Assembly (NCBI GenBank): GCA_017397835.1
Contig: JAFQHV010000005.1
Coordinates: forward strand, 1-56,333
Direction: 5' to 3'
Origin: Oscillospiraceae bacterium
Lineage (GTDB): Bacteria; Bacillota; Clostridia; Oscillospirales; Oscillospiraceae
Length of the DNA stretch: 56,333 bases
Part shown: positions 18,717 through 42,641 of the stretch, piece by piece
Layout: the number at the start of each line of letters is the position of its first letter
How positions within the stretch are numbered: position 1 is the stretch's first letter
The notes under the pieces: generated by a model
The model's database searches: none
What the model was told of the DNA's origin: nothing
The model's input: the letters and a program-made list of their open reading frames with translations, nothing else
Translations under genes and position numbers: made by a program

Positions 18717-18740
18717 GTGACCACCGCAGAACAATCGAAC

Positions 18741-18840
18741 ACAGGGGCGCTGAAAGTTATTTTCGGCTGAGATTACGGCGAATGGCAGCTGTATGTCCCT
18801 CGACCTGATCCGGGTAATGCCGGCGTAGGAAGTGGATTCG
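18741..18840 (+). ncRNA. TPP riboswitch (THI element)
   Basis: The RNA contains the conserved THI-box parts in order: CAGGGGCGCTGA at the start, GGCTGAGATTA (pyrimidine-sensing arm), then CCTGATCCGGGTAATGCCGG and CGTAGGAAGTGG (pyrophosphate-sensing arm). A terminator hairpin follows it. When thiamine pyrophosphate binds, transcription should stop before thiT, so thiamine import is turned on only when cofactor is low. Confidence 0.95.
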
Positions 18841-18856
18841 ACCACGTCGTTTCTCC

Positions 18857-18900
18857 TGTACCGCACCGCACCCGTTCGGATGTGTGCGGTACATTTTTTT
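18857..18900 (+). terminator. riboswitch expression-platform terminator
   Basis: TGTACCGCAC (18857-18866) pairs with GTGCGGTACA (18884-18893), with extra pairing inside the loop, and is followed by seven Ts. It sits between the TPP aptamer and the thiT ribosome binding site. Confidence 0.85.
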
Positions 18901-18916
18901 GGGAGGAGCGAGCGGA

Positions 18917-19480
18917 ATGAACCGGACGAGGATACACAGGACCGTCCAAATGCTGTGCGAGGGCGCGCTGATGATCGTGCTGGCGCAGGTGCTGGACTTC
19001 GTTCCTCTGTGGAAAATGCCCTGGGGCGGGACGATCTCCCTGAACATGGTGCCCATGATCTTCTTCGCCTGCCGCTGGGGACTGGGGGCCGGTCTGCTGT
19101 CCGGCGCCGTGTTCGGTGTGGTGCAGTTTATGTTCAACGGCGGCATCGCCCTCGGCTGGCAGTCCATTTTGGGCGACTATCTGGTAGCCTATATGGCACT
19201 GGGACTTGCGGGAGTATTTGTGGGCCGGCGCTGGAGCATCTACGCCGGCACGGCTGTGGGCTGCGCCGCGCGCTTTTTGGTGCACTATGTGGTGGGAGCT
19301 ACCATTTGGGCGGAGAATATGCCCGAGGTGTTTTTCGGCCTGACTATGACGTCCCCGTGGCAATACTCCCTGCTGTACAACGGGTTTTACATGGGCATTG
19401 ACTTTGTGCTGTGCCTTGCGGTGTTTGCCCTGCTTTCCGCGCCGCTGGGGAGGTACTTTTTGGGCAGCGATTTGAAATAA
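18917..19480 (+). CDS. thiT: ECF-type thiamine transporter substrate-binding subunit ThiT
   Basis: The 187-residue protein is a small membrane protein with about six hydrophobic segments, including LMIVLAQVLDFVPLW, LNMVPMIFFACRWGLGAGLL and YNGFYMGIDFVLCLAVFALL. Tryptophans and the SPWQYSLLYNGF stretch fit the S-component ThiT, which binds thiamine tightly and works with the shared EcfT/EcfA energy module encoded elsewhere. A TPP riboswitch controls it, strong support for thiamine as substrate. ATG 18917 has GGGAGG upstream; an earlier in-frame ATG (18884) lies in the terminator. Confidence 0.93.
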   Translation: MNRTRIHRTVQMLCEGALMIVLAQVLDFVPLWKMPWGGTISLNMVPMIFFACRWGLGAGLLSGAVFGVVQFMFNGGIALGWQSILGDYLVAYMALGLAGVFVGRRWSIYAGTAVGCAARFLVHYVVGATIWAENMPEVFFGLTMTSPWQYSLLYNGFYMGIDFVLCLAVFALLSAPLGRYFLGSDLK

Positions 19481-20560: not shown

Positions 20561-22171
20561 TTACTTCTGATCGCGCTTCATGATCAGCAGGAAAGCCAGC
20601 ATCAGCACGATGCCCACGGGCAGGGCGATGATGGTGGGGGTGCCAACCATGCCCAGCACACCGGCCAGCAGGTAGGTGATGCCAGAGATGACCGCGCAGG
20701 AGATGGCGTAGGGCAGCTGAGTGGACACGTGGTTGACGTGGTTGCACTGAGCGCCGGCGGAAGCCATGATGGTGGTGTCGGAGATGGGGGAGCAGTGGTC
20801 GCCGCACACGGCACCGGCCATACAGGCGGAGATGCACACGATCATCAGGGGGTTCTCGGCGGGCAGAGCGCTCTGCACGATGGGGATCAGGATGCCGAAG
20901 GTGCCCCAGCTGGTGCCGGTAGCAAAGGCCAGCACGCAGCCCACGGCGAAGACGATGACGGGCAGCAGGAACTGGATGCCGGTAGCGCTCTCAACCAGAG
21001 CGGCCACAAACTCCTTGGCACCCAGGGAGTCGGTCATGGCCTTCAGGGTCCAGGCGAAGGTCAGGATCAGGATGGCGGGAACCATGGCCTTGAAGCCCTC
21101 GGGGATGGAACTCATCATCTCCTTGAACTTCATGGAGCGGCGGATCATGTAGTACACCATGGTGATGACCAGAGCCACGGCGGAGCCCAGCATCAGACCC
21201 ACGGAGGCATCGGAGTTGGCGAAAGCATCAATGAAGTCCTCGCCGGAGAAGAAACCGCCGGTGTAGATCATGCCGATGACGCAGCAGATGATCAGGGAGA
21301 TGACGGGGAACAGCAGGTCCAGCACGATGCCCTTGTCCGAGACGGTGGTGTCCTCAACGTTGGCATACTCGTTGGTGCCGGAGAACAGGTCGCCGTTGTC
21401 GATGGCGTTGCGCTCGTGCTTGGCCATGGGGCCAAAGTCCACCTTCATAATGACCAGACCCAGCATCATCACGATGGTCAGCAGGGCGTAGAAGTTATAG
21501 GGGATGGCGCGCAGGAACAGGTTGAAGCCCTGACCGTCCTCGGCAAAGCCGGACACGGCGGCGGCCCAGGAGGAGATGGGGGCGATGATGCACACGGGGG
21601 CGGCGGTGGCATCGATGATGTAGGACAGCTTGGCGCGGGAGATCTTGTGCTTGTCGGCCACGGGACGCATGACGCTGCCCACGGTCAGGCAGTTGAAGTA
21701 GTCGTCGATGAAGATCAGGCAGCCCAGCAGGATGGAGGCCAGCTGCGCGCCCACGCGGGACTTGATGTGCTTTTCAGCCCACCGGCCGAAAGCGGCGGAG
21801 CCGCCGGCACGGTTCATCAGGGACACCATGGCACCCAAAATGACCAGGAAGACCAGAATACCGACATTCCAGCCATCGGTCAGGGAGCCGACGATGCCGT
21901 CGTTGAACACGTGGTTCAAGGTGCCCTCAAAGCTGAAGTTGGAGTACATCAGACCGCCGGCCAGGATACCGATGAACAGGGAGGAGTAGACCTCCTTGGT
22001 GATCAGAGCCAGAGCGATGGCGATGACGGGGGGCAGCAGAGCCCAGGGGGTGTTGAAGAACTTGCTGGCGACCTCGGCCTCCTCGCCGGTGGCGAAGACG
22101 GTGGTGGCCAGAGCCATGACCATCATCATAATGACGGCAACACGACTCAGCCAACGGTTTTTGCTTCTCAT
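20561..22171 (-). CDS. NhaC-family transporter, probably lysine permease (LysW-type)
   Basis: The 536-residue protein has a signal-like N-terminus and about 11-13 membrane segments of the NhaC Na+/H+ antiporter family. LLGCLIFIDDYFNCLTVGSVMRPV and GDHCSPISDTTIMASAGAQC are two of its conserved stretches. A lysine riboswitch controls it. NhaC-type genes under LYS-element control have been predicted as lysine transporters (LysW) in comparative genomics, so lysine is a likelier substrate than Na+/H+ exchange alone. An AGGAGGG box lies before ATG 22171. The gene is single and ends in a shared terminator. Confidence 0.85.
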   Translation of the reverse strand: MRSKNRWLSRVAVIMMMVMALATTVFATGEEAEVASKFFNTPWALLPPVIAIALALITKEVYSSLFIGILAGGLMYSNFSFEGTLNHVFNDGIVGSLTDGWNVGILVFLVILGAMVSLMNRAGGSAAFGRWAEKHIKSRVGAQLASILLGCLIFIDDYFNCLTVGSVMRPVADKHKISRAKLSYIIDATAAPVCIIAPISSWAAAVSGFAEDGQGFNLFLRAIPYNFYALLTIVMMLGLVIMKVDFGPMAKHERNAIDNGDLFSGTNEYANVEDTTVSDKGIVLDLLFPVISLIICCVIGMIYTGGFFSGEDFIDAFANSDASVGLMLGSAVALVITMVYYMIRRSMKFKEMMSSIPEGFKAMVPAILILTFAWTLKAMTDSLGAKEFVAALVESATGIQFLLPVIVFAVGCVLAFATGTSWGTFGILIPIVQSALPAENPLMIVCISACMAGAVCGDHCSPISDTTIMASAGAQCNHVNHVSTQLPYAISCAVISGITYLLAGVLGMVGTPTIIALPVGIVLMLAFLLIMKRDQK

Positions 22172-22248: not shown

Positions 22249-22267
22249 ATACAAGTCCCGGTCAGGG

Positions 22268-22430
22268 TGATAGCGCTCCACGGAAATGTGACAGTCCGGG
22301 AGATGTTGTCCCGCGGACCAGAACCCGCCGCCCGGGCAGGCGGAGTGCTCTTCGGCGGTGACCCCTCTCCCACAGAACGGCTGCCCGGCCTTGTTTTGTG
22401 GTACGCATGGTGACCGCACCTCTATCGACA
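22268..22430 (-). ncRNA. lysine riboswitch (L box)
   Basis: Read on the minus strand, the conserved parts appear in order: GATAGAGGTGCGG at the 5' base, GAGGGGTCACCGCCGAAG, GTTCTGGTCC, and finally ACTGTCACATTTCCGTGGAG followed by CGCTATC, which closes the basal stem with GATAG. This is the LYS element. A promoter lies upstream and a terminator hairpin downstream. The pairing partners of the inner arms are visible (CGGGCAG/CTGCCCG). Lysine binding should switch off the transporter gene. Confidence 0.95.
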
Positions 22431-22446
22431 ATATTCGATTGCGGAC

Positions 22447-26245: not shown

Positions 26246-26274
26246 TTGCGAAGTGAACAAAGTTCTGTTACAAT
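26246..26274 (+). promoter_or_regulatory. predicted promoter of the giant surface protein gene
   Basis: TTGCGA (26246-26251) and TACAAT (26269-26274) are spaced 17 bp. Transcription from here gives a leader of about 140 nt before ATG 26423. Confidence 0.6.
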
Positions 26275-26422
26275 TACATTACATTGGAATCTCATCGTCT
26301 GCCTGGGGTGGGGGGACCTGTGTCTCCGGGGCGGTATTGCCGCTGCCGCCAAGGCCTTTTGCAGCCGATTGGACCAAGAATTGGGGCAAACGCTCCGAAA
26401 AAAACGAAAGGAAGGTATTTCT

Positions 26423-29400
26423 ATGAAAAGACCCTTCAAGAAGCTCACGGCCTGGCTGTGCTGCATGGCAATGCTCATCAGCTTCATCCCGGCCACCGCT
26501 CTGCCCGTCTTCGCAGCAGAGGCTCTGCCCACCAGCGGCAAGATCCTTGCTGATGCGGAGTACGTGCTGGAGGACGACCACGTCCTGACCGGCGGCATTA
26601 CCGTCACGGGTGGCGTTGACGTCACTCTTGACTTGGCCGGTCATACCATCTCCATGCCTGATGCTGACGGCACCTACTTCACCGTCAACGAGGGTGCCAC
26701 CCTGACCATTCAGGACAGCGTTGGCACCGGCAAGATCCAGTTCAAGAATACCGCTGGCGGTTACGGCGGTATCAACATCTATGGTAATCTTGTGCTGGAA
26801 GGCGGCGAGCTGAACGGCTGGACCCGTATCAACAACGGCACCTACGGTGCCGGCGGTATGCTGAACATTTGGGCCGGCGCCAGCTTCACCATGACCGGCG
26901 GCAAGATCACCGGCGCTGACTGTAACGGCAACACCGTGCTGCGTACCCAGGGTACCGGCGGCGGGATCGACGTGACCATCACCGGCGGTGAGATCACCGG
27001 TAACAACGCCAAGGGCAGCAATATCATCTACCTGGCCGGTACGGCTGCCGATCCCAACACCCTGACCATCGGCGGCGATGCGGTTGTGGCAGGCAACACC
27101 TTGAACAATGCTGCCTACACCGCCGCTGGTTACGAGATCCAGTGTAAGAACACCCACGTCACCGTCAGCGGTGAGGCTACCGTCGGCTACCTGTACGACG
27201 ATGGCGACACGGAGACCGAGGGTGTGGACGGCTACCCCTACAGCTCCATGACCTTCACCGGTGCCCCCACCGTGGCCGGCATCCGCTGGTCTGCCGGTGC
27301 CCGCACCCCGACCACCATCGAGAAGCTGACCGAGGGTGCCAACATCAAGACGGTCAACGGTGCTACCGTCTTCAGCAAGGACGCCACCGTTGCGACCGAG
27401 GCCTATGGTTCTGCCAAGCCTGACATGGGCACCATCTACACCTATCAGGCTCCCGTGCTGCCCACCAGCGGCACTGTGGGCGAGGCGGACTACGTCCTGA
27501 CGGCTGACCACGTGCTGACCAACACCCTGATCATCGCTGCCGGTACCGAGGTCACCATCGACCTGGCCGGTAACACCATCTCCATGCCCGATAAGGATGG
27601 CCAGTACTTCACCATCAACGGTAAGCTGACTATCAAGGACAGCGTGGGCGGCGGCCTGGTCCAGTTCAAGACCACCACCGCCGGCTCCCCCGCCATCGGC
27701 ATCGGCAACTCCAGCACCGAGGCTGTCTTCGTGCTGGAGGGCGGCGAGCTGAACGGCTGGAAGCGCGCAGGCGCAGGCGGCGCCATCTATATGTACGAAG
27801 GCTCCACCTTCATCATGACCGGCGGTCTGATCACCGATTGTGATGCTACCAGCTTCTCCGTCATCCGTTCTGCCGGCGGCGGTCAGACCCTGACCATCAC
27901 CGGCGGTGAGATCACCGGCAACGACAGCGGCGGCGCCATCGTCGGCATCTCCACCGCTACTGCTGCCAACCCCGCCACCGTGACCATCGGCGGCGAGGCG
28001 GTCATCATTGACAACACCGTCAACGAGGCTGCGTACACTGCTGCCGCTTACGAGCTGCAGTTCAAGAACGCCGACGTGGCCATCGGCGAAAATGCCGTCG
28101 TCGGCTATGTCTACAACGACGGTGATGTGGAGAACGCCGACGTTTCCGGCTACCCCTACAGCTCCATCAGCATCACCGGCGCTCCCATCGTGTCCGGCGT
28201 GCGCTGGAGCGCGGGTGCCCGCACTCCCGTTTCCGTCACCGAGCTGGAAGACGGCGCTGAGATCAAGATGCTGACTTCCCTGGGCAAGAGCCAGATGGAC
28301 GAGACCGTGGCTGTGTCCGGTCCCGACGCCGAAAACAAGTACACCTACAGCTACAAGGTTCCCACCTACGCCGTGACCGTCGAGCAGGCTGCCGGCGGTA
28401 CTGTGGAAGTTGACGTGACCGAGGGTGCCGAGGGCACCACCGTTACCGTGACTGCCACGGCTGACGAGGGTTACGAACTGGTCGATATCCTGGTCAATGG
28501 CGAAGCCATCCAGGGCAACACCTTTGACATCGTGGCCGGCGACAACGTTGTCACCGCCACCTTCGAGGCTGTTGCCGCCAGCCTGCCCACCAGCGGCACT
28601 GTGGTTGCCGGCGAGTACACCCTGGCCGCCGACCACGTGCTGACCAACACCCTGGCGGTTAAGGACGGCGCTGAGGTCACCATCGACCTGGCCGGCCATA
28701 CCATTTCTATGCCCGACAAGGACGGCGCCTACTTCTCCGTCGCTGCCAACAGCACGCTGACCATCAAGGATAGCGTGGGCGGCGGTAAGGTGCAGATGAA
28801 GGCGACCACCAGCGGTTCTGTTGGTATCGCCGTTACCGGTACCTTCAACCTGGAGGGCGGTACTCTGACCGGCTGGAGCCGTTCCGGCGCCGGCGGTGCC
28901 GTATATCTGTACGCCGGTTCTACCTTTAACATGACCGGCGGTGCCATCACCGGCAACACCGCTACCGGCGCTTCTGCCATCCGTTCCGTCACCAACGACG
29001 GCGGTATCACCGTCAACATCACCGGCGGTGAGATCACCGGCAACGAGACCAGCGGCAACATCGTTGACGTTCGCGGTATTGCGTCCAATCCCTCTACCGT
29101 GAACATCGGCGGCGACGCTGTTATCGCCGACAACACCATCGGCGGTGCTGCTTACACCACCTCTAACCACGAGCTGCAGTTCTACAACGTCCACCTCACC
29201 GTTGGCGATGAGGCCGTCGTCGGCTACATCTACAACAACGGCGATGCCGAGACCGAGGATGTGGACGGCTATCCCTACAGCTCCATCGCTATCACCGGCG
29301 CCCCCATCGTGTCCAGCGTCCGCTGGTCCGCCGGCGCCAAGACCCCCGTCACCGTCAAGAACCTGACCGACGGCGCTGAGATCAAGATGCTGGCCGACCT

Positions 29401-32400
29401 GTCCGGCAGCCAGATCGACGACACCGTGGCCAAGAGCCTGGACGGCAACGTCTATACCTACGCCTGGCAGGATCCCGCTACGATCGAGTACACCGTCAGT
29501 GTCGGCGCTGTCGCCGGCGGTACCGTGGCTGTGGCTCCCGAGGCCGGCGTGATCGGCACCGAGGTCACCGTCACTGCCACTGCCGACGAGGGCTACGAGC
29601 TGGTTGCCATCCTGGTGGACGGCGAGGCTATCGACGGCACCACCTTCGCCATCACCGGCGACCACGTTGTCACCGCAAACTTCGCGGCTGTTGACGTGTC
29701 CCTGCCCACCAGCGGCCAGGTTGCTTCCGGTGAGTACGTGCTGGAGGGCGACCACGTCCTGACCGGCACCCTGGTGTTCCAGGGCGAGACCGTCATCGAC
29801 CTGGCGGGCAACACCATCACCGCCGATGCCGGCAGATGCTTCTTCAACATTCCTGCCAACGGCCACCTGACCATCACCGACTCTGTCGGCGGCGGCGTGG
29901 TGGAGTTCCTGGAGATGACCTCTTCCGGCGGTATCTCCCTGACCGGTACCTTCACCCTGGAGGGTGGCGAGCTGACCGGCTGGAGCCGCGTTGAAAACGG
30001 CGCCCTGAAGGCCGGCGGCTTCATCGATATGTTCGCCAACTCCACCTTCGAGATGACCGGCGGCGTTATCACCGGCATGACCGCTGCCAGCTACTCCGTT
30101 ATCCGCAGCCACGGCGCCGGCGTCACCGTTGACATCACCGGCGGCGAGATCGTGGGCAACGAGTCCAGCAACGGCGCCATCATCGGCGTCGGTAAGGCCG
30201 GCGGCCAGAGCTGGCTGAACATCGGCGGCGAGGCTGTCATTCTGGAGAATACCATGAATGGCGAGCTGCTGCCCTTTAACTACGATGCGATCGTTGCCAC
30301 CGAGACCATCGTGACCATCGGCGACTACGCCTTTGTGGAGGCTAACATCAACGCTTCTCTGGGTGCCAGCGAGGACGCTGTGGCTCTGGAGTCCAGCCAG
30401 ATCCACATCACCGGCACTCCCTACGTCAAGTACCTGCGTGCCGACAGCTCTGCCAAGACTCTGGTCACCATCACCGAGCTGGAAGACGGTGCGGAGATCC
30501 ACACCTCTTACGGCTTCACCGTTGATGCAGAGAACAAGGATGCGTCCGTTGCCGTCGAGGCTTGGGATGCCGAGAGCGGCAATGCCAACGAGAAGGGCAA
30601 CATTTACACCTGGCGTGACCCCGCCAGCGTCGTGACCTACACTGTCACCGTGGGTGAGGTTTCCAACGGTACCGTGACTGTCAGCCCCGCCCAGGGTGAG
30701 GCCGGCACCACCGTTACCGTGACTGCCACTGCTGCCGAGGGTTATGAGCTGACCGCCATCCTGGTGGACGGCGAGGCCATCGACGGCACCACTTTCGCCA
30801 TCACCGGCGACCACGTGGTCACCGCTACCTTCGCTGAGAAGGTCGTGGAGCCCGATCCCGAGCCCACCGGCCTGCCCACCAGCGGCACCGTGGCTTCCGG
30901 CACCTATGTGCTGACCGGCGAGCATAAGCTGACCGGCCGCCTGAACATCACGGGCGGTTCCGAGGTCGTCATCGACCTGGCCGGTAACACCCTGACCTAT
31001 GACGAGACCTTCCCTGAGGCCAGCTCTTTCTTCCAGTTGGCGACGATCAACGACAAGCTGACCATTAGGGACAGCGTGGGCGGCGGTCAGATCGTGGGTC
31101 ACGCGACTACCAGCAGCACCATGATCACCTCCTACGGTGACGTCACCCTGGAGGGTGGTAAGCTGACCGGTTGGGATCGTACCGACAACACCGGCGGTGC
31201 CCTGTACATGATCAGCGGTACCTTCACCATGACCGGTGGTGAGATCAGCGGCAACGCCGCTAAGAGCGGCGCCAGCAGCAACTCTGCCATCCGGTTCGGT
31301 AACGGAACCACCTTTAACATGAGCGGCGGTACCATCACCGGCAACAACGGCGCCCCTGCCATTTCTGCGGGTCTGCTCACCTTCAACATGACCGGCGGTA
31401 CCATTAAGGACAACCTGACCAGCGGCGCGGCCCTGACCGTGGGTCAGTTCGATGTGCAGGTCAACCACGCCGATGCCGTTGTGAACATCAGCGGCGGCGA
31501 GATCGGCCACCTGTACGTCGTTGCGGGCGCCCTCAACGTCAGCGGCGCGACCGTGATCAACAACCTGCGCATGGACGCCGCTGCCGTCACCGCCATCGAG
31601 GACCTGGAGCCCGGCGCCAGCATCAACACCCAGCGCAGCGGTGTCTTTGATACCGTGGCTGACGACGGCACCATCTTCTCCATGGCCGACGGCGAGACGG
31701 ATGCCGTGGCTGCGGGTACTCTGTACACCTATTATGATCCTGCCCTCCTGGGCTTTGCTGACCAGTTCCAGCCCGGCGCTACCGTCACCCTGACCGAGGA
31801 TACCTCTGCCGGTGTCGGCGTGGTGCTGACCGAAGCCGGTACCTACACTTTGGATCTGGCCGGCTACACCCTGACCGGTACTGCCGTGCCTTACTTCACC
31901 TTGGGTGAGGGCGTTGAGCTGATCGTCAACGACAGCAGCGAGAACGGCACCGGTAAGATCGTGGGTATCGAGAATGCCGCCAACGCCATGATCCTGGTCA
32001 ACGGCGGTTACTTCGAGCTGAACGGCGGTCTGCTGACCGGCAACGTCAACGCTAACGGCATGGGCGGCGCCATCTACGCTGCCACGGCCGGCTCCTTCGT
32101 CTGCATCAACGGCGGCGAGATCAGCGGCAACACCGCTCGTCGCGGCGGCGCCATCGCCGGCCCCGACACGGCTGCTGCAATCGACGTGACCGTCCTGATC
32201 ACCGGCGGTACCGTCACCGGTAACGCCACCAACCGCGGTGCTACCATGTACACCCAGACCGGCGCCACCGTCGTCATCGAGGGCGGCAAGGTCGGTTACG
32301 GCACCATCAACGGTGAGCCTGCCGTCATCAATACTTCCGGCGCGGAAGATCTGTGGCTGCGTAACTCCGTTGTCGAGATCGCCGGCGGCGACATCAACGG

Positions 32401-35400
32401 TATCTACTTCAACGGCAACGCCGAGAATGGCTACACCCTGACCGTCAGCGGCGCCACCACCATCAAGTGCCTGTGCGGTGCCACCGCCGAGGTCGCCTCT
32501 GTCGGCAGCCTGGAGCCCGGCGCTGAGATCATCCTGAACGGCGGCGCTTTGGCTGTGGACGAGAACGACGACACCGTCAAGGCCTACGGCCTCAACTACT
32601 ACTACCCCGGCGATGTGCAGAGCATCCTGTTCGTGGCCAACAGCTTTGGCGGCGACAGCACCCAGTATCTGAATGCCGTTGGTTCCTACTTCGGCAAGAA
32701 GATCGCTCCTGCCTATCTGTACGTGGGCAGCCAGTCCATCCGCAACCACGCTCAGTCCCTGGCTGAGAGCCTGCGCAACACCGACCTGAACGGCGACGGC
32801 ATTATCGGCGACAGCCGCCAGCGCGCCGGCGACGGTCTGTACACCTGCGGCGGCTTCACCGGCTACGTGGATATCCCCACCGTTATGGAGTCCACCACTT
32901 GGGATTACGTGGTCCTGCAGCCCGGCGTTGAGTACGTCGGCTTCGAGGGCACCTACAACAGCGATATCGACTTCCTGATGGACTACATCGCTGACGTGCA
33001 GCCCGGTGCCCAGATCCTGTGGAGCCAGACTTGGGCCGTTGACAACCGCTCCTGGAGCGATCAGTCCGATCCCGACGATCCCGAGTCCGCCGGTGCCGGC
33101 GAGTGGCTGAATACCAGCAGCTATCTGACTCAGTTCGGCGGCAGCCAGGAAGTCATGTACGACGCCATCCTGCGCAACACCGATAAGTTCGTCGCCGGCG
33201 CGGATGCCCGCTTTGCCTTTGATGATTGGTTCCCCATCGGCATCGCCGTCCAGACCATGCGTCAGAACTACACCGACAGCTATCTGACCCGCGACGGCTT
33301 CCACCTGAGCTACAACGCCGGTCGTATGATCGCTGCCCTGACTGTGTTCAAGACCCTGTATCCCGATGTGGATCTGTCCACCATGACCGCTGCCGATATG
33401 GCCGGCCTGTTCAAGGACACTTCCACCAACCACCTGAAGGATCTGTTTGATCCCACCGAGGAGAACGTGGCTACCCTGCTGGCTGCTGTCGAGACCGCCT
33501 GCGCCGACAAGGATACCATCGTGACCACTTACGGTGAGGGCACTGCCAACAAGCAGTTCAACCCCGATGCCGCTGTCATGAGCAGCAACGAGTACGTCGC
33601 TGTCTACGAGAACGTGACCGAAGTTGGTCAGGTTCCCGTCCGCACCGATGTCCTGGATAAGGACAAGAATGTGGTCACGGACAACGGCATTCTGCAGACG
33701 AACATCCTGACCGACAAGTACGCTTCCACCGGTGCCGGTAAGATCGTCATCTACAAGAACGGCGCCGCCGTTTCCGAGATCGACGAGCTGTGGCTGGAGG
33801 CCAACGCCGGTATCGAGATGACCAACCGCTATGCGAACCTGGACGGCACCTACTACATCATTGCCGATCCTCAGGCTCCTCAGCTGGCCGTGTCCGGCAG
33901 CAAGCTGTACATGACCTTCACCGTCATGCTGTACACCGATGACGGCAACATCATCAACGGCGGTGTGTACTTCACCACCTCCACCGATGGTGTGACCTGG
34001 ACTTCCGCTGTCAAGGTCTCCGACGCTCCCATGGCTTACGGTCTGACCGCTCTGAGCAACGGCAACCTGCTGCTGTCCGTGGCCGACACCACCACCAAGG
34101 TGCTGACCCTGACCGCTGCCGGTGCTGTGGCCGCGACCGTTGAGCTGGACGACTCCGTCGCTGACGTGGCCTTCGCCGAGGTCGACGGTACCGTTTGGGC
34201 CCTGACCTCCAACGGCGCGATCTACTTCTCCGCCGACAAGGGCGCTACCTGGACTGCTACCGGCGTGACCGGCGGCAGCTACGCCAACCCCGATCTGGTG
34301 CCTCTGGCCAAGAAAGGCGCTTACGTCACCTGGTCCGACGAGGCTGAGTGCAAGATCTACAGCAAGGTCTGGTCCATCGACAAGGAAGACACCGCCACCT
34401 ACGGCTGGAACAACACCGAGGGCAACGTGGTTGCCGAGTATGCGGTTTCTACCGCTTACGCCGGCAAGTCCACCGGCGGTCAGCCCGCCACCATGGTCAC
34501 CAGCACCAGCGGCGGCACTCACACCAAGACCTACTTCGTCGACGGCGGTGAGCTGGATAGCTTCACCCACGGTGTGGTCACCTCCTTCGGTAAGAACCTG
34601 GTTCTGGAGAGCAGCCTGACCATCAACTTCAAGACTTCCAAGTCTCAGGTCGCCGGTATGCTGGACGAGGGCGAGGTCGCTACCGTCAAGTTCCTGCGTC
34701 ACTACGCCGACAAGGATCCCGTCGTGACCACCATCGAGGTGAGCGACGAGTACACGGATGTGGCGAACGCCAACAACTACGCCTTCCCCTATCCCGGCAT
34801 TGCCGCTAAGGAGATGGGCGACAGCGTGTACTTCGCCATCTACGACGCCGACGGCAACCAGATCACCACTCTGGAGAAGTACTCCGTGCTGACCTACGCC
34901 AAGAGCCAGCTGAGCACCAGCGACACCGCGTGGCGTACGGCCGTGGTCGACTTGCTGAACTACGGTGCTTCTGCCCAGGTCTACTTCGAGTACGACGTGA
35001 CGAACCTGGTGAACGCCGGCCTGACCGAGGAGCAGAAGGGTTGGGCTTCCGAAGTGCTTACCCTGGATGCAAGCATGGAGGAAGGCTACGTCAACCCGCC
35101 CGCCCGTGCTTCCAAGAAGCTGAATCTGGTGAGCTCCGTCGAGCTGATGCTGCAGTACACCTACATGTCCGGCGATTACACCGAGCAGGTGAAGAATGCG
35201 GCCTATGCGACCGTTTCCTACACCACTTGGGACGGCAATCCTGTTGAGAAGCGGATTGAGCTGACCGAGGGTACCTCCGGCGGCGGCTCCAAGGACATCA
35301 AGTTGGACTTCCTGGCCACGCCTGATATGGGTTCTCTGGTTACCATCAACCTGCACTATGCCGACGACAGTGTGATCGAGGGCACCGAGATGGTGTACAG

Positions 35401-35524
35401 CGTTGATATCTACTGCTATAACCAGATGAAGAAAACCGGTTATAACCCTGACGATTCTCTGCACGTCATGCTGATGAACCTGATGCTGTACGGTGATTCC
35501 GTCTACGCGTACAAGAATCCCTGA
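26423..35524 (+). CDS. 3033-residue secreted beta-helix surface protein with SGNH/DUF4886-like and beta-propeller-like regions
   Basis: A signal peptide (about residues 1-32, cleaved near VFAAEA) is followed by six modules of roughly 290-390 residues. Modules 1-5 begin with LPTSG, then VLxxDHVLT, xIDLAGxTISMPD, LTIKDSVGGG, GGELxGW, TMTGGxITG and GEITGN. These short, Gly/Thr-rich rungs fit a right-handed beta-helix. InlB-like domains (about 70 residues, TVTATADEGYELVAILVDG) follow modules 2-4. Near residue 2065 comes SILFVANSFGGDS, the start of an SGNH/DUF4886-like domain, to about 2335. Residues 2485-2636 have sialidase-like strands (FTTSTDGVTWTSAVKVS). A C-terminal module (2723-3033) ends the protein. 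There is no SLH, LPxTG or membrane anchor. ATG 26423 follows GAAAGGAAGG. Function is probably adhesion or glycan binding, inferred. Confidence 0.9.
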   Translation: MKRPFKKLTAWLCCMAMLISFIPATALPVFAAEALPTSGKILADAEYVLEDDHVLTGGITVTGGVDVTLDLAGHTISMPDADGTYFTVNEGATLTIQDSVGTGKIQFKNTAGGYGGINIYGNLVLEGGELNGWTRINNGTYGAGGMLNIWAGASFTMTGGKITGADCNGNTVLRTQGTGGGIDVTITGGEITGNNAKGSNIIYLAGTAADPNTLTIGGDAVVAGNTLNNAAYTAAGYEIQCKNTHVTVSGEATVGYLYDDGDTETEGVDGYPYSSMTFTGAPTVAGIRWSAGARTPTTIEKLTEGANIKTVNGATVFSKDATVATEAYGSAKPDMGTIYTYQAPVLPTSGTVGEADYVLTADHVLTNTLIIAAGTEVTIDLAGNTISMPDKDGQYFTINGKLTIKDSVGGGLVQFKTTTAGSPAIGIGNSSTEAVFVLEGGELNGWKRAGAGGAIYMYEGSTFIMTGGLITDCDATSFSVIRSAGGGQTLTITGGEITGNDSGGAIVGISTATAANPATVTIGGEAVIIDNTVNEAAYTAAAYELQFKNADVAIGENAVVGYVYNDGDVENADVSGYPYSSISITGAPIVSGVRWSAGARTPVSVTELEDGAEIKMLTSLGKSQMDETVAVSGPDAENKYTYSYKVPTYAVTVEQAAGGTVEVDVTEGAEGTTVTVTATADEGYELVDILVNGEAIQGNTFDIVAGDNVVTATFEAVAASLPTSGTVVAGEYTLAADHVLTNTLAVKDGAEVTIDLAGHTISMPDKDGAYFSVAANSTLTIKDSVGGGKVQMKATTSGSVGIAVTGTFNLEGGTLTGWSRSGAGGAVYLYAGSTFNMTGGAITGNTATGASAIRSVTNDGGITVNITGGEITGNETSGNIVDVRGIASNPSTVNIGGDAVIADNTIGGAAYTTSNHELQFYNVHLTVGDEAVVGYIYNNGDAETEDVDGYPYSSIAITGAPIVSSVRWSAGAKTPVTVKNLTDGAEIKMLADLSGSQIDDTVAKSLDGNVYTYAWQDPATIEYTVSVGAVAGGTVAVAPEAGVIGTEVTVTATADEGYELVAILVDGEAIDGTTFAITGDHVVTANFAAVDVSLPTSGQVASGEYVLEGDHVLTGTLVFQGETVIDLAGNTITADAGRCFFNIPANGHLTITDSVGGGVVEFLEMTSSGGISLTGTFTLEGGELTGWSRVENGALKAGGFIDMFANSTFEMTGGVITGMTAASYSVIRSHGAGVTVDITGGEIVGNESSNGAIIGVGKAGGQSWLNIGGEAVILENTMNGELLPFNYDAIVATETIVTIGDYAFVEANINASLGASEDAVALESSQIHITGTPYVKYLRADSSAKTLVTITELEDGAEIHTSYGFTVDAENKDASVAVEAWDAESGNANEKGNIYTWRDPASVVTYTVTVGEVSNGTVTVSPAQGEAGTTVTVTATAAEGYELTAILVDGEAIDGTTFAITGDHVVTATFAEKVVEPDPEPTGLPTSGTVASGTYVLTGEHKLTGRLNITGGSEVVIDLAGNTLTYDETFPEASSFFQLATINDKLTIRDSVGGGQIVGHATTSSTMITSYGDVTLEGGKLTGWDRTDNTGGALYMISGTFTMTGGEISGNAAKSGASSNSAIRFGNGTTFNMSGGTITGNNGAPAISAGLLTFNMTGGTIKDNLTSGAALTVGQFDVQVNHADAVVNISGGEIGHLYVVAGALNVSGATVINNLRMDAAAVTAIEDLEPGASINTQRSGVFDTVADDGTIFSMADGETDAVAAGTLYTYYDPALLGFADQFQPGATVTLTEDTSAGVGVVLTEAGTYTLDLAGYTLTGTAVPYFTLGEGVELIVNDSSENGTGKIVGIENAANAMILVNGGYFELNGGLLTGNVNANGMGGAIYAATAGSFVCINGGEISGNTARRGGAIAGPDTAAAIDVTVLITGGTVTGNATNRGATMYTQTGATVVIEGGKVGYGTINGEPAVINTSGAEDLWLRNSVVEIAGGDINGIYFNGNAENGYTLTVSGATTIKCLCGATAEVASVGSLEPGAEIILNGGALAVDENDDTVKAYGLNYYYPGDVQSILFVANSFGGDSTQYLNAVGSYFGKKIAPAYLYVGSQSIRNHAQSLAESLRNTDLNGDGIIGDSRQRAGDGLYTCGGFTGYVDIPTVMESTTWDYVVLQPGVEYVGFEGTYNSDIDFLMDYIADVQPGAQILWSQTWAVDNRSWSDQSDPDDPESAGAGEWLNTSSYLTQFGGSQEVMYDAILRNTDKFVAGADARFAFDDWFPIGIAVQTMRQNYTDSYLTRDGFHLSYNAGRMIAALTVFKTLYPDVDLSTMTAADMAGLFKDTSTNHLKDLFDPTEENVATLLAAVETACADKDTIVTTYGEGTANKQFNPDAAVMSSNEYVAVYENVTEVGQVPVRTDVLDKDKNVVTDNGILQTNILTDKYASTGAGKIVIYKNGAAVSEIDELWLEANAGIEMTNRYANLDGTYYIIADPQAPQLAVSGSKLYMTFTVMLYTDDGNIINGGVYFTTSTDGVTWTSAVKVSDAPMAYGLTALSNGNLLLSVADTTTKVLTLTAAGAVAATVELDDSVADVAFAEVDGTVWALTSNGAIYFSADKGATWTATGVTGGSYANPDLVPLAKKGAYVTWSDEAECKIYSKVWSIDKEDTATYGWNNTEGNVVAEYAVSTAYAGKSTGGQPATMVTSTSGGTHTKTYFVDGGELDSFTHGVVTSFGKNLVLESSLTINFKTSKSQVAGMLDEGEVATVKFLRHYADKDPVVTTIEVSDEYTDVANANNYAFPYPGIAAKEMGDSVYFAIYDADGNQITTLEKYSVLTYAKSQLSTSDTAWRTAVVDLLNYGASAQVYFEYDVTNLVNAGLTEEQKGWASEVLTLDASMEEGYVNPPARASKKLNLVSSVELMLQYTYMSGDYTEQVKNAAYATVSYTTWDGNPVEKRIELTEGTSGGGSKDIKLDFLATPDMGSLVTINLHYADDSVIEGTEMVYSVDIYCYNQMKKTGYNPDDSLHVMLMNLMLYGDSVYAYKNP
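26525..32600 (+). repeat. six tandem module-encoding repeats
   Basis: Module starts are at 26525, 27458, 28583, 29702, 30872 and about 31738. The first five start with the LPTSG codons. DNA similarity is high in places: 29612-29676 and 30761-30825 differ at 3 of 65 bases, and modules 2 and 3 share exact stretches around their starts. Module 1 lacks the InlB-like spacer. The array should be prone to recombination. Confidence 0.9.
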
Positions 35525-35555: not shown

Positions 35556-35593
35556 AACGACCCCGGCGGCTTCGGCCGCCGGGGTCGCTTTTT
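35556..35593 (+). terminator. terminator of the giant surface protein gene
   Basis: GACCCCGGCGGC (35559-35570) pairs with GCCGCCGGGGTC (35575-35586) around a TTCG tetraloop and is followed by GCTTTTT. Confidence 0.93.
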
Positions 35594-36745: not shown

Positions 36746-36943
36746 TAGCGTGGACTTTGCCCTCTTTCTGCGAACGGTTTACATAAATCTTTCGGAGGCG
36801 AGGACAAAGGCCGAATTGATCCGGATTTCGGAACGCGCTGTTCCCCTTTGGGACGTGGCCTGCGCACGCAAGCCCCGGCGCAGGCGCAGGCTCCAGAGGA
36901 CGGATCTCGCGTTCACCCCAAAACATATGAGGAGGAAACACAT

Positions 36944-39900
36944 ATGAGCAACCTGAAACGCGCGTTCAGCATGGTTATGGCTTTGGTCATGGTGTTGGGT
37001 ATGATCACCATCCCCGCCGCCACTGCCGCAGAAGCCTCTGTGTCTGAAAGCATCTTCTCCGACGCCAGTGAGATCACCTATGGTGAGGCCGTGGCGATCA
37101 CCGGCGGTATCGGCCTGTTTGCCGGCACCGACGGAAAATTCCTGCCCAAGGGCACGGTGACCCGCGCCCAGATGGCAACCATCATCGTCAAGATGCTGCA
37201 CGGCGCCGACGCAAACGCCGACAGCTTCAAGGGCGAGGGTAAGTTCATTGATACCGCCTACTTCGAGGGCGGCTGGGCCGAGGGTTACATCAACTGGTGT
37301 GCCACTTTGGGTATCGTTGCCGGTTACGGCGACGGCACCTTTAAGCCCGGCAACGAGGTGACCACTGCCGAGGCGGCCACCATGATCCTCAACGCACTGA
37401 AAATCGATGCCGGTGAGGGCACCTGGCCTACCACTGTCATGTCCAAGGCAACCGAAGAGGGCATGTTCAAGGATCTGAAGTCCATGCCCGGCACCAACAA
37501 GGCCCTGAACCGCGAGCAGCTGGCCGTGGTGGCGCTGAACGGCCTGAACTGGAGCGCATCCGATGATGCCGGTTGGTACGTTTCCGGTGGTGCAGCGGAC
37601 GAGGATATGACCTTCGAGACCTTTAAGGAGGCCAAAAAGTACGCCGATGCCGTGGGCGGCAAGGCGCAGGAACTGAAGGGCCGTGACTCTTTGGGCCGTA
37701 AGGTCTACGGGCTGAAGAGCCTGGAAGGCTGGATCACCGCCAACCAGTCCAGCCTTGTGGATGGCAACTACACCGAGCTGACTTGGTTTGACGGCGCCGA
37801 GGCCAAGACCGAGAGATTCGCTTTGGTTACCGATGAATCCATGCTCGGCCACAAGGTTGAACTGTGGTACGAGGAGGTCTATACCTCTGACCGCAAGCCC
37901 GGCAAGGCCTTTGCTGCTGTGGAGCAGGCCGAGTACATCACGCTGCTGCGTGATGCCATGAAGGCGGAAGAATACAAGACCGCTTTCGACACCAAGAAGG
38001 TTTCCTCCTCCGGTCTGACGCTGGCTGTGGACAGCAAGGGCTATGTTAAGACCGGCGTGGCCGCAACCGCCGTGTTGAACAACGATCAGGCCATCAGCTT
38101 TATTGCCGGCCAGCAGGCTCCTGCCGGCACTTATGTCGTTGACAACGAGACCCATCTTATCTGCGGCTATATTGCTCCCGCCGCGCTGACCATGGCTAAG
38201 GTCAGCTACGTTGATACTACCGAGGGGAATGAGAGCATTTCTGTCGGCACCCTGTCCCTGCCTAACAGCGCCGAGGATGACCGTGTCAACGAGTACGAGG
38301 GCATTGCCAAGGATGACTACGTCACCTACACTCAGGTGCAGGAGAAGTACACCCTGACCAAGATGGAGACCGTTACCGGTGCCATCACCGAGTACTATAC
38401 CCGTACGGATGGCAAGCAGGTGCTTACCATCAATGGCGAGCAGTATATTACCGGTGTCGCTGCCGGCAGCATTGCCGGTATGACCAGCATTGCTGATTTG
38501 GCGGACAACTTCGTCTATGAGCAGGAGTATGTCTTTTATCTGGCGCCCGACAGCTCCGTTTTGGGTTACGAGACGGTTGCCGGCGGCGGGTTTGACCTGG
38601 CCAACACCTTCTTCGTGCTGGGCGTGATCGAGACGACCAGCGAGAATGCTTACGGCGTTCAGACCAAAGCGTGCTACGCTCGCGGTATCGACATGACCGG
38701 CAACGAGGCCATGATCCCCGTGGGTGCCGAGCACAAGAACGCCGGCTTTGTGGGTGCTGACAGCATCGAGGACTTCAGCACTGCCAAGATCACTGCCACC
38801 ACCAACAACTTCTACTCTGTGGAAGACCTGACCACCTCCAAGGAGGCCAAGGAACTGGGCCTGAAGAAGCTGGTTCCCTTCCCCACCAAGTACGACAAGA
38901 ATGACCCCAACTCCACCACCTATACTCAGGTTGCGGATGGTGTGGGTTATTCCACCTCCGAGTGGGGTCCCGGCGGTCAGTTTGAGTACGGTGTGGCCGA
39001 AAAGGTCAGCGGTGGTAAGACCATCAACGGCACTTGGTTGAGCACCTACAAGGGCACCAAGTACATCGTTCTGGAAGGCACCGTCGACCAGACGGAGCCT
39101 CTGTCTGTTACCGTTAAGACGGCTGATGAGGCGGATTTCTATGCTGCCGGTGCTGTGAACAACCGTATCCTGCGCAGCCGTCGCGCCAGTGGCGGCGACG
39201 AGCTGGAGGTCATGGTGCTGATGACCAGCATGGACCGCATCACCAAGAATAGCTTGATTTATGTGGCTGCCGGCAAGAATAATGCTGTCGGCGTGGATGC
39301 ACTGGGTAATACCTTCTCCGTTTACGATGCCTTGACCGGCGCGGAGATGACCATTACTCTGGAGGGCATTTCTACCATTCCCGCCGGCTTCTACTCTTTG
39401 GGTTATGACTCCGAGGAAGGCCTGCACAAGATCGCGCTGGCCAACGGCGTGCCCGTCATGCTGCCCGGCAAGACCAACGAGAGTGAGTTTGAGCAGCTCA
39501 ACGACGTGAAGGACGGCCGCAAGTTTGAAAACGTGGCCTATGATGCCCAGTTGATCGGCTTTAACGGCAGCAACATTACCACCGACGTGACCAACTACAA
39601 CTCCGCCAGCGGAATTAAGGTCATCGATCCCCGTACGGACGATGAGGTGACCAAGAGCGGTGTGGCCCGCATCACCAGCATGGACCAGCTGTGGGGCATG
39701 GTCGAAGCTATGGAGGGCCGCGTGCGCTTCGAGCTGGATCTGTGCTTCAACAACAGCAAGGTCGTTACCGCCTTCGTTGAGGTGTACAATAACAGCAGCT
39801 ACGGCGGTCAGGGCAGCAACACCGTGGTGTACTACAGCGGTGATGGCGACAAGGTCACCGTTATCACCAGCGATATGTATCCCCTGTACCACGAGATCGA

Positions 39901-41449
39901 GGTGGATGCCGACGTGCTGGACGACCTAAGCGAGGGCACTTACAGCTTTGGCTTTGGCGCGAACAACGTGATCACGATGGAGACTGCCGTCGTTCCCGGG
40001 ACCACCAGGTATGCTGCAACCTTGCCCGAGACCAGCAGGGAACCCCTGAATACCATCACGACCGTTTGCGACGATCCCAGCAGCAGCGACCTGATCGAAT
40101 ACGTGTACGTGGCGGCCGAGGATCTGGTAGTTATCACCGATGCCACCACCGGTGCGCCCAGCAGTGATGTTACCGAGATTGCCGGTGAGGTCTCTGCCGT
40201 GGAGTTTGACAAGGTGTACGACACCACGGGCGTGCTGGGCGGCCTGACCACGGACAACTTCGCGGCCAAGGCTGAGCAGTATGAGATCACCTACAGCATC
40301 TACAACACCGTCACCGGCAAGAAGCTGCTGGTGGTAGAAGATGCGGTGGCGCTGGTCAAGAACGGGACTCTGCCCGCCAGCTATACGATTGTCGGCGGTG
40401 CTGACGAGCTGCCTTCCGGTATGAGTCTGGCCGACGTCCTTGCGGACGCCAGCTACGATGTCAACTACATCCTGTACGACGGCAACCGGGTTTACATTTT
40501 GGAGTGCACTCACTTCACTGACCTTGCTGCCGGTGAGCTGGCTGCTCTGGACGACAACCTGCGCCTGACGAAAGATACGGTCCTGACTGGCCCCATTGAG
40601 GTCAAGAGCAACAAGGTGCTGGATTTGAACGGTTATAACCTGTACGCACTGTCTGCGGATGCGGCACCCTACTTCACCATTTCCAATGATGCTAAGCTGA
40701 CCATTAAGGACAGCAGCATGGGCGACGGCAAAATTACCGGTGTAGATGGCGCCAGCCAGGCTATGATCAAGGTGGAAAAGGGCGCGTTGGTGTTGGAGGG
40801 CGGCACGTTGACCGGCCATACCAGCAGCTCCGACGGTGGCGCTGTGAATCTGGGTGATAGCACCACCTTTACCATGACCGGCGGCGCAATCAGCGGTAAC
40901 GCTACCAGTGCTTACGGCGGTGCAGTGTACGTTGGTAAGAATGCTACCTTCACCATGAATGGCGGTGAGATCAGCGAGAATGCTGCAAAGCGCGGCGGCG
41001 GTATTACCAATGGTGACGTGGCCGGTAGTAGCGCAAATATCGTCATCGGCGGCAACGCAGTAATCGCGGATAACAGCTGTGTAGAGCGCGGCGCCAACCT
41101 GTATAGTTACGATGCCAATGTGACGTTTGGCGGCAACGCAAAGATCGGCGGAAGCTCCGGTGGCAATACTGCCTCTGCTGCGGACAATACTCAGCTGCGC
41201 GGTGGTACGATGGCTTTCAGCGGTGGTACTGTTGAGCGGATGAACTTCACTAATGGTAGCGCTGGCGTTGCGGGTACGATTAGTGGCAATGCTGTGATTG
41301 AGTATGCGGAAGTTGGTACGGTTGACATTACCGTCCAAAACTTGGTGACCGGTGCCAGCATCACGGTTAACACCAAAGGCGTACTGAAGACCGACCAGAC
41401 AGTCAACGTGAACGATAAGAGCTACTCCTACGTTGGCGACAGCAACTGA
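36944..41449 (+). CDS. SLH-domain S-layer-type protein with C-terminal beta-helix module
   Basis: The 1501-residue protein has a signal peptide (MSNLKRAFSMVMALVMVLGM, cleaved near AATAAEA) and SLH domains at about residues 45-200 (GTVTRAQMATIIVKML; GIVAGYGDGTFKPGNEVTTAEAATMI; a weaker third with NREQLAVVALNG). SLH repeats bind pyruvylated wall polymer and hold the protein on the cell surface. A large central region (200-1185) has no recognised domain. Residues about 1189-1501 repeat the beta-helix rung style of the giant protein (LNGYNLYAL, TMTGGAISGNA, TMNGGEISENAAKRGGG). ATG 36944 has AGGAGG upstream. It is likely a main S-layer or associated protein. Confidence 0.9.
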   Translation: MSNLKRAFSMVMALVMVLGMITIPAATAAEASVSESIFSDASEITYGEAVAITGGIGLFAGTDGKFLPKGTVTRAQMATIIVKMLHGADANADSFKGEGKFIDTAYFEGGWAEGYINWCATLGIVAGYGDGTFKPGNEVTTAEAATMILNALKIDAGEGTWPTTVMSKATEEGMFKDLKSMPGTNKALNREQLAVVALNGLNWSASDDAGWYVSGGAADEDMTFETFKEAKKYADAVGGKAQELKGRDSLGRKVYGLKSLEGWITANQSSLVDGNYTELTWFDGAEAKTERFALVTDESMLGHKVELWYEEVYTSDRKPGKAFAAVEQAEYITLLRDAMKAEEYKTAFDTKKVSSSGLTLAVDSKGYVKTGVAATAVLNNDQAISFIAGQQAPAGTYVVDNETHLICGYIAPAALTMAKVSYVDTTEGNESISVGTLSLPNSAEDDRVNEYEGIAKDDYVTYTQVQEKYTLTKMETVTGAITEYYTRTDGKQVLTINGEQYITGVAAGSIAGMTSIADLADNFVYEQEYVFYLAPDSSVLGYETVAGGGFDLANTFFVLGVIETTSENAYGVQTKACYARGIDMTGNEAMIPVGAEHKNAGFVGADSIEDFSTAKITATTNNFYSVEDLTTSKEAKELGLKKLVPFPTKYDKNDPNSTTYTQVADGVGYSTSEWGPGGQFEYGVAEKVSGGKTINGTWLSTYKGTKYIVLEGTVDQTEPLSVTVKTADEADFYAAGAVNNRILRSRRASGGDELEVMVLMTSMDRITKNSLIYVAAGKNNAVGVDALGNTFSVYDALTGAEMTITLEGISTIPAGFYSLGYDSEEGLHKIALANGVPVMLPGKTNESEFEQLNDVKDGRKFENVAYDAQLIGFNGSNITTDVTNYNSASGIKVIDPRTDDEVTKSGVARITSMDQLWGMVEAMEGRVRFELDLCFNNSKVVTAFVEVYNNSSYGGQGSNTVVYYSGDGDKVTVITSDMYPLYHEIEVDADVLDDLSEGTYSFGFGANNVITMETAVVPGTTRYAATLPETSREPLNTITTVCDDPSSSDLIEYVYVAAEDLVVITDATTGAPSSDVTEIAGEVSAVEFDKVYDTTGVLGGLTTDNFAAKAEQYEITYSIYNTVTGKKLLVVEDAVALVKNGTLPASYTIVGGADELPSGMSLADVLADASYDVNYILYDGNRVYILECTHFTDLAAGELAALDDNLRLTKDTVLTGPIEVKSNKVLDLNGYNLYALSADAAPYFTISNDAKLTIKDSSMGDGKITGVDGASQAMIKVEKGALVLEGGTLTGHTSSSDGGAVNLGDSTTFTMTGGAISGNATSAYGGAVYVGKNATFTMNGGEISENAAKRGGGITNGDVAGSSANIVIGGNAVIADNSCVERGANLYSYDANVTFGGNAKIGGSSGGNTASAADNTQLRGGTMAFSGGTVERMNFTNGSAGVAGTISGNAVIEYAEVGTVDITVQNLVTGASITVNTKGVLKTDQTVNVNDKSYSYVGDSN

Positions 41450-41594: not shown

Positions 41595-41624
41595 GAAACA
41601 TATTGACGGAAAAGGAGGGTGACC

Positions 41625-42641
41625 ATGGCTGGGCGCAGAGTACAGTACCACCGGAAGCGGCAAAATCCGCTGATTCGGTTTGTCAAAAGTCTATACTGGA
41701 TCGCAGTAGTGCTTTCCGCTCTGATCGTGGCAGCGTTCCTGCTGTGGAAGCTGTTTGTCCCCGCACCCAAGGCGCCGGAGATCCCGGGGCAGGAGGACGT
41801 ATCCGTCATGGGTGATTTGCAGCAGGGCCCCGAGCGCCGAGATCTGTGCTATACCTTCCTGCTGATGGGTACCGACGACGGAAACGGCAACGCGGACACC
41901 CTGATGGCGGCTACCTATGACGTCGCCAACCAAAGGGTGGGTGTGGTGTCCATCCCCCGGGATACCATCGTGGACCGGACGTGGAGCCGTTACCCCAAGA
42001 TCAACGGTGCCTACAGCGGCGGCAACGTGGACCGAGTCCGGCAGGAGGTCAGTCACCTGCTGGGCATCCCCATTGACTTTTACGTTAAGGTGAACATCAA
42101 GGCGTTCGTAGAACTGGTGGACGAGGTCGGCGGCGTGGACTTCAACGTACCCGTTGACATGGATTACGATGATCCGTGGCAGAACCTGTCTATCCACTAT
42201 AAAAAAGGTATGCAGCACCTGACCGGCCAGCAGGCGCTGGAGGTGGTGCGGTTCCGCCACAACAACGATCTGTCCGGTTACTCCGATACCGGGCGGACCC
42301 GGACCCAGCAGCAGATGATACAGGCGGTGGCGCAAAAGGTGCTGTCCTGGGGCAGCGTTGCAAAAATCAAGCCCTTTTTGGACATCTGCATGGAGCACGT
42401 TGATACCGACCTGACGGCGGCGGAGCTGCTGTACTTTGCCGGACAGGCCCTGTATCTGGACGTGGGCAGCGATGTGGCCACGACCACCCTGACCGGCCGG
42501 ACCGATGCCACCCACAACGGCTACAAGTGGTGCGTAGAGCTGGATAAGGAGCAGACGTTGCAGGATATCAACGACCTGCTCAATCCCTATACCACCCCGG
42601 TTACCGACGAAATGGCACATATTGTGACGGCAAACGGGTGA
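41625..42641 (+). CDS. LytR-CpsA-Psr (LCP) family wall-polymer transferase
   Basis: The 338-residue protein has a cytoplasmic basic tail, one transmembrane helix (IAVVLSALIVAAFLLWKLF, about 26-45) and an external LCP domain. Its motifs are LLMGTDDGNGNADTLMAATYD, VVSIPRDTIVD, KINGAYSGGNVDRV and FRHNND...DTGRTRTQQQ, with the conserved Asp and Arg residues that bind the polyprenyl pyrophosphate. LCP enzymes attach teichoic acid or capsule-type polymers to peptidoglycan. That activity fits the neighbouring SLH protein, because SLH domains need a wall polymer. AGGAGG lies 6 nt before ATG 41625. A gap of 37 nt precedes the next gene, probably in the same transcript. Confidence 0.93.
   Translation: MAGRRVQYHRKRQNPLIRFVKSLYWIAVVLSALIVAAFLLWKLFVPAPKAPEIPGQEDVSVMGDLQQGPERRDLCYTFLLMGTDDGNGNADTLMAATYDVANQRVGVVSIPRDTIVDRTWSRYPKINGAYSGGNVDRVRQEVSHLLGIPIDFYVKVNIKAFVELVDEVGGVDFNVPVDMDYDDPWQNLSIHYKKGMQHLTGQQALEVVRFRHNNDLSGYSDTGRTRTQQQMIQAVAQKVLSWGSVAKIKPFLDICMEHVDTDLTAAELLYFAGQALYLDVGSDVATTTLTGRTDATHNGYKWCVELDKEQTLQDINDLLNPYTTPVTDEMAHIVTANG

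Follow-up and report, generated by a model that had tools for sequence, protein, structure and literature searches.

A giant modular protein of an Oscillospiraceae bacterium combines repeated stalk modules, a DUF4886 domain and a propeller-like stretch

The window analysed here comprises 56,333 nucleotides of an Oscillospiraceae bacterium (GCA_017397835.1, contig JAFQHV010000005.1). On its forward strand a single gene (26423–35524) encodes a protein of 3,033 residues that is a new combination of known kinds of parts. Six beta-helix-type modules and three InlB-B-like linkers would make up a long stalk, which would carry an SGNH esterase of the DUF4886 family joined to a sialidase-like beta-propeller. 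The giant is probably fastened to the surface or to a partner by its duplicated terminal domain, which stands where several paralogues have SLH domains. Stalk and propeller may bind and position a glycan outside the cell, be it host mucin or plant polysaccharide, and the SGNH domain would strip ester groups such as O-acetyl by a Ser-His-Asp mechanism, with Ser2074 attacking the ester. The de-esterified glycan would then be open to other surface glycosidases such as GH20C and BNR proteins. That the giant is a secreted surface protein which binds and de-esterifies outside glycans is given a probability of about 0.5; secretion, surface place, the beta-helix and propeller folds, activity, substrate and mode of attachment are all inferred from sequence. 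In broader terms, the giant belongs to a small and fast-changing family, which probably serves to bind or trim extracellular sugars.

The frame starts with an ATG at 26423, ends with the stop codon at 35522–35524 and has no internal stop; as an open frame it reaches upstream as far as 26195. Full-length orthologues were seen in two of the 63 other genus genomes examined, called G051 and G052 below; 31 of the 64 genomes in the genus set reach a completeness of 90% or more and a contamination no higher than 5%, and absence is less sure in the rest. The frame stays open over its full length in both orthologues (2,860 and 2,910 residues), and the single uninterrupted reading frame of the original prediction therefore stands. 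Its N-terminus looks like a signal peptide and is near-identical in both orthologues; the giant is thus probably secreted, as had been proposed. A scan with two short patterns detected related loci at no fewer than nine places (43 stretches matched, 10 of which encode a relative), a number that is a lower bound, as records close to the giant's own genome may be missing from it.

Opposite the giant an antisense frame of 3,061 residues (26279–35464, minus strand) spans the same stretch, and one might suspect that the giant frame itself is an assembly or coding artefact, aided by high-GC strand bias. The chance of this is minute. The signal-like start, the Pfam domains and the open orthologues in two other genomes belong to the forward frame, and other large genes of this genome likewise have long antisense frames opposite them, which is why the antisense frame looks like an effect of codon composition.

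Table 1. Features of the giant gene and of its downstream neighbours; positions are those of the window, residue numbers (aa) those of the giant
Feature	Position	Strand	Basis
Promoter-like site, TTGCGA-17-TACAAT, TG ahead of second hexamer	26246..26274	+	Consensus scan only, 9/12 matches
Signal-peptide-like N-terminus, aa 1-33	26423..26521	+	Read off the sequence by inspection
Module 1, LPTSG at aa 35	26525..27457	+	LPTSG position, module identity, iterated profile
Module 2, LPTSG at aa 346	27458..28366	+	LPTSG position, module identity, iterated profile, module tree
Divergent InlB B-repeat linker 1 (PF18998), aa 649-717	28367..28573	+	Pfam, DNA repeat family
Module 3, LPTSG at aa 721	28583..29488	+	LPTSG position, module identity, iterated profile
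InlB B-like linker 2	29489..29685	+	PF18998; placed by DNA repeat family D9
Module 4, LPTSG at aa 1094	29702..30637	+	LPTSG position, module identity, iterated profile
InlB B-like linker 3	30638..30834	+	PF18998; placed by DNA repeat family D9
Module 5, LPTSG at aa 1484	30872..31756	+	LPTSG position, module identity, iterated profile
Module 6, divergent, without LPTSG, aa 1779-2060	31757..32602	+	Profile match 2e-38
DUF4886 (SGNH clan) domain, aa 2064-2365; Ser2074, Gly2102, Gln2166, Asp2291, His2294	32612..33517	+	PF16227 1.1e-24, profile, motif table
Sialidase-like propeller stretch, aa 2380-2700, two Asp-boxes	33560..34522	+	Asp-boxes, weak profile matches, BNR_2 in two paralogues
Terminal domain copy A, aa 2720-2880	34580..35062	+	Profile searches, hhalign
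Terminal domain copy B, aa 2895-3033	35105..35521	+	hhalign against copy A
Terminator-like hairpin with T tail, 3' of the giant gene	35558..35587	+	Consensus scan only
Neighbour with SLH domains near N-terminus and the giant's helix module at C-terminus; likely ATG 36944	36848..41449	+	Pfam, iterated profile, synteny
Neighbour of the LytR-CpsA-Psr (LCP) family	41619..42641	+	Pfam, synteny

Most of the protein is stalk. The pentapeptide LPTSG, which is expected about 0.004 times by chance in a protein of this composition, occurs five times and heads a repeated module each time, just as the original prediction had it. Compared with module 3, modules 1, 2, 4 and 5 show identities of 55, 64, 53 and 39%, respectively. 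An iterated profile built on these five recovers six modules in the giant (aa ~42–227, 350–534, 725–906, 1098–1279, 1488–1696 in two pieces, and 1786–1963), and with this match the sixth, divergent module that had been postulated is confirmed. Three stretches matching PF18998, which follow modules 2, 3 and 4, had been absent from the first list of parts.

The stalk modules likely fold as beta-helices. They show GG and TGGxITGN or TGN motifs reminiscent of helix rungs, and modules 1 and 3 have an internal period of 29 residues (the signal at lag 29 exceeds the 95th percentile of shuffled sequences), which did not stand out in modules 2, 4, 5 and 6 in the same comparison. The Pfam models Beta_helix (PF13229) and Chlam_PMP (PF02415) do not match the giant itself. 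Chlam_PMP matches four of 35 related modules, the best at 3.8e-5 (the output leaves the members unnamed), and Beta_helix is above its cut-off in a relative of 4,022 residues, whose related modules sit elsewhere in the chain. Among 18 PDB matches of the module profile none was a significant beta-helix match: the best (0.19) was an unrelated protein, and a tail spike (E = 0.56) and pertactin (E = 0.88) ranked below unrelated ones. A second module profile gave three PDB matches, the best of which (8yke_A, 0.011) covers positions 283–344 of 375, i.e., the linker side; phmmer searches with all six modules, and with the repeats of the L061 frame described below, found no match. What had been called beta-helix modules are true repeats with a probable beta-helix fold, for which the PDB matches are weak.

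Two known types of surface proteins invite comparison. With the Pmp or autotransporter type the giant shares the rung-like repeats and, in modules 1 and 3, the 29-residue period; unlike these proteins, it matches neither of the two Pfam models, nor did Pfam reveal an autotransporter barrel. Proteins with divergent InlB B-repeats have in common with the giant the three linkers of this type between its modules, but a leucine-rich repeat domain (by Pfam) and an anchor (by reading the C-terminus) were not found in the giant. Stalk modules also differ in number between the species. The giant has five LPTSG heads, while each orthologue has three of the PTSG type. In a module tree, only module 2 among the LPTSG modules of the giant pairs with strong support with an orthologue module, that of G052; the remaining ones pair uncleanly, a pattern consistent with modules having been gained, lost or exchanged.

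The head of the protein is a DUF4886 domain. PF16227 matches it with 87.3 bits against a cut-off of 26.7, which confirms the SGNH/DUF4886-like domain of the original prediction, and the two orthologues reach 104.9 and 84.1 bits. A profile made from the last 979 residues of the giant and ten relatives matches the solved chain 4i8i_A at 7.6e-56 over 263 positions; the PDB entry carries merely the title ‘hypothetical protein’. An NCBIfam search of the giant gave no match. Block I of the SGNH signature is represented by Ser2074 within VANSFGG and block V by Asp2291 and His2294 within DGFHLSY. Gly2102 (YVGSQ) is the block II Gly by alignment to relatives. At the presumed block III the giant has LQP and most relatives have LQQ, MQQ or LQN; the classical Asn was not recognised there in the alignment. 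The Asn next to the catalytic Ser (Asn2073) is invariant in an alignment of ten rows and kept in 13 of 17 DUF4886 domains that were tabulated, one of which, from a paralogue in the same genome, was entered as a frame cut at the locus end.

In the same table the Ser and the Asp-x-x-His motif are intact in all three giants and in 10 of the 17 domains. The Ser is lost in seven, four of which have also lost the His, and none of the ten domains that keep the Ser lacks the His. The coupling of the two losses agrees with a genuine Ser-His pair. Both residues are missing in a paralogue of 1,856 residues from the same genome, in its counterpart of 1,854 residues in G052 and in a 1,327-residue frame of G051 that is cut by the contig end. 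A frame of 1,983 residues has Asp in place of Ser and Arg in place of His. In three frames of 1,764 to 1,777 residues Thr replaces the Ser and the His is retained. The seven domains without the triad Ser imply that the head can persist without catalysis; in the giant, the conserved residues agree with the proposed esterase activity. As to precedent, the portion of a 2022 SGNH review that deals with DUF4886 counts 247 members and one structure and gives the activity as not known (PMC9487903). This review was the only paper found to name DUF4886 in a search of open-licence PMC papers, and the search brought up none on the present architecture. What sets the giant's copy apart from the family is its setting: it is embedded in 3,033 residues and followed by a propeller-like stretch.

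That stretch had been predicted as well, and it holds up on weaker evidence. Asp-boxes lie at residues 2520 and 2603 and are kept in all three giants; four paralogues examined in G051 and G052 have three of them. Profile matches in the PDB are weak (5hx0_A at 1e-3, solved sialidases at 3e-3), and BNR_2 scores 24.7 and 26.3 bits in two paralogues, both under the cut-off of 31.4. Together they hint at a propeller fold behind DUF4886. Immunoglobulin-type matches (E of 0.007 and above) over the region of the second Asp-box were regarded as chance. GH33-type sialidases have a catalytic Arg triad and a Tyr/Glu pair; an active sialidase is not claimed here.

The last ~310 residues of the giant are a tandem duplicate. 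hhalign aligns copy A with copy B at 97.5% (E = 5e-12), and 20 column-shuffled controls reached at most 0.57%. The C-terminal module had been called novel-looking, which still applies inasmuch as it has no Pfam name, but not in the sense of a singular one: sampling of 245 genomes across the order found it in 17. The present genome is among these, and in it the profile of the domain matches the giant gene only. Elsewhere its partners include Beta_helix, BspA-type LRR and cohesin proteins, and in one locus (L103) it is not C-terminal. Pfam was run on 12 of 16 terminal-domain frames, i.e., on all but L111, L108, L110 and the second L103 frame. SLH was found in none of 17 terminal-domain proteins scanned with Pfam at thresholds from 0.01 to 1, at least three of which (L060, L101 and L107) are frames cut by locus ends. 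This pattern makes an alternative role in surface retention or docking directly testable. Two relatives may be mentioned in passing. A frame of 2,208 residues in another genome of the genus (G032; locus L061, 1036–7659) has a long and strikingly regular run of GGGVY/TISGN repeats and ends in the duplicated terminal domain, and the above-mentioned 4,022-residue protein (locus L098, 372–12437, minus strand), whose genome belongs to a different family within the order, has Beta_helix matches together with the terminal domain.

No classical anchor was recognised, as had been noted before. The last 60 residues of the giant contain no LPXTG-type sorting motif and no hydrophobic run longer than four, and Pfam did not find SLH (PF00395) in the protein. 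The genome has three sortase matches. Anchoring by sortase via LPTSG was considered and rejected, since LPTSG stands at the head of modules and does not occur at the C-terminus. The terminal domain may be regarded as a candidate for attachment or docking.

The combination of parts had at first defied naming. Kinship explains it in part. The same genome has three further DUF4886 frames, of 1,740 and 1,856 residues on contig C35 and of 1,764 residues on C25, which share with the giant the head, DUF4886 followed by the propeller-like stretch (DUF4886-BNR-Big_2). They differ in lacking LPTSG and helix modules, and two of the three, those of 1,740 and 1,764 residues, end in SLH, where the giant ends in its duplicated terminal domain; the 1,856-residue paralogue has no SLH. 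The latter, in which Ser and His are lost, follows an intact DUF4886 gene on C35. Both C35 paralogues lie behind five GH20C-type genes (two seen by Pfam, the others by tblastn identity of 55–70%) and a protein of 2,011 residues with SLH and BNR_2 above the cut-off. In all three genomes DUF4886 genes lie within ~4.5 kb of BNR/SLH genes; GH20C genes were found in the present genome only and not in the limited stretches of G051 and G052 that were searched. With 26 SLH-bearing frames in this genome, surface display must be common there. The presence in one genome of intact copies beside copies that lost Ser and His, the fusion to a propeller and the BNR and hexosaminidase neighbours of the paralogues together point to a testable substrate class for an SGNH family that has a solved structure and, in the review section cited above, no known activity.

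From all this a bolder picture can be drawn, which we consider doubtful: the duplicated terminal domain could be a surface-retention or partner-docking module that replaces SLH here and in other secreted proteins of the order, displaying a DUF4886 O-acetylesterase and a propeller on a stalk subject to gain, loss and reshuffling of its modules, with active and dead heads kept in one genome, two of them as adjacent genes, as enzyme and lectin versions. As a separate observation, two adjoining frames at another locus (L019, 6560–13541) fuse helix modules of the giant's type to metallophosphoesterase domains of the purple-acid-phosphatase type, and the first of these has SLH at its C-terminus.

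The gene order around the giant is common to all three genomes: a class V aminotransferase, which we read as serC, the giant, a YegS-type kinase, the SLH/helix protein, the LCP gene and an F420-ligase-like gene. Their conservation is uneven. The aminotransferase is 95–97% identical to its orthologues, the F420-ligase-like protein 95–96% (partial in one locus), the kinase 80–85% and LCP 78–79%, but the SLH/helix protein only 45–48%. The parts of the giant range, by best match, from 35% (module 5) to 77% (DUF4886). DUF4886 leads all parts in the comparison with one orthologue; against the other it reaches 55% and the propeller leads with 64%, the propeller value for the first being 62%. The terminal domains are 41–44% identical. 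The giant and its SLH/helix neighbour diverge much faster than the adjoining genes. Exposed surface proteins often change fast.

How do these data bear on function? De-esterification of an outside glycan agrees with the signal-like start, the strong DUF4886 score, the Ser, Asp, His and Asp-boxes kept in three of three giants, and the company of the paralogues, i.e., BNR/SLH genes in three genomes and GH20C genes in one. This company, however, is that of the paralogues and not of the giant, whose own neighbours are the aminotransferase, kinase, SLH/helix, LCP and F420-ligase-like genes named above. The lack of a known activity in the quoted part of the review (PMC9487903), the unrecognised block III Asn, the seven Ser-less domains and a propeller assigned on matches of 1e-3 and above further temper the optimism. 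It is quite possible that the giant is mainly an adhesin or a structural fibre of the surface layer, in which the SGNH-propeller part binds and catalysis is unimportant or absent. Most of its length consists of stalk modules, which vary in number between species and mostly pair uncleanly; the searches pick up faint traces of Pmp- and pertactin-type motifs, the catalytic Ser is lost in seven of 17 domains, and the conserved SLH neighbour carries the same helix module. Against this reading stand the Ser, Asp and His retained in all three giants and the rank of DUF4886 as the best-conserved domain in the comparison with one orthologue.

The enzyme might also work at home. It could remove acetyl groups from, or add them to, envelope glycans of its own cell, e.g., an SLH-binding wall polymer, instead of acting on outside glycans. 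The conserved grouping of the giant with an SLH protein and an LCP gene speaks for this, and, according to the pertinent part of the review (PMC9487903), a number of SGNH families transfer O-acetyl groups to envelope polymers. Yet no membrane acyltransferase showed up near the giant in a scan of ten frames, five of which have Pfam matches, and the paralogues adjoin BNR and GH20C genes. This alternative is improbable, and de-esterification of outside glycans by a secreted surface protein stays the preferred reading.

Upstream of the giant the window harbours two riboswitches. A lysine riboswitch (22263–22432, minus strand, 79.9 bits) lies just upstream of a gene of the Na+/H+-antiporter family (20561–22171, minus strand). 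A TPP riboswitch (18733–18848, plus strand; 57.7 bits, cut-off 54.3) precedes a frame of 198 residues (18884–19480) that looks like a membrane protein; at a guess, it is a thiamine transporter.
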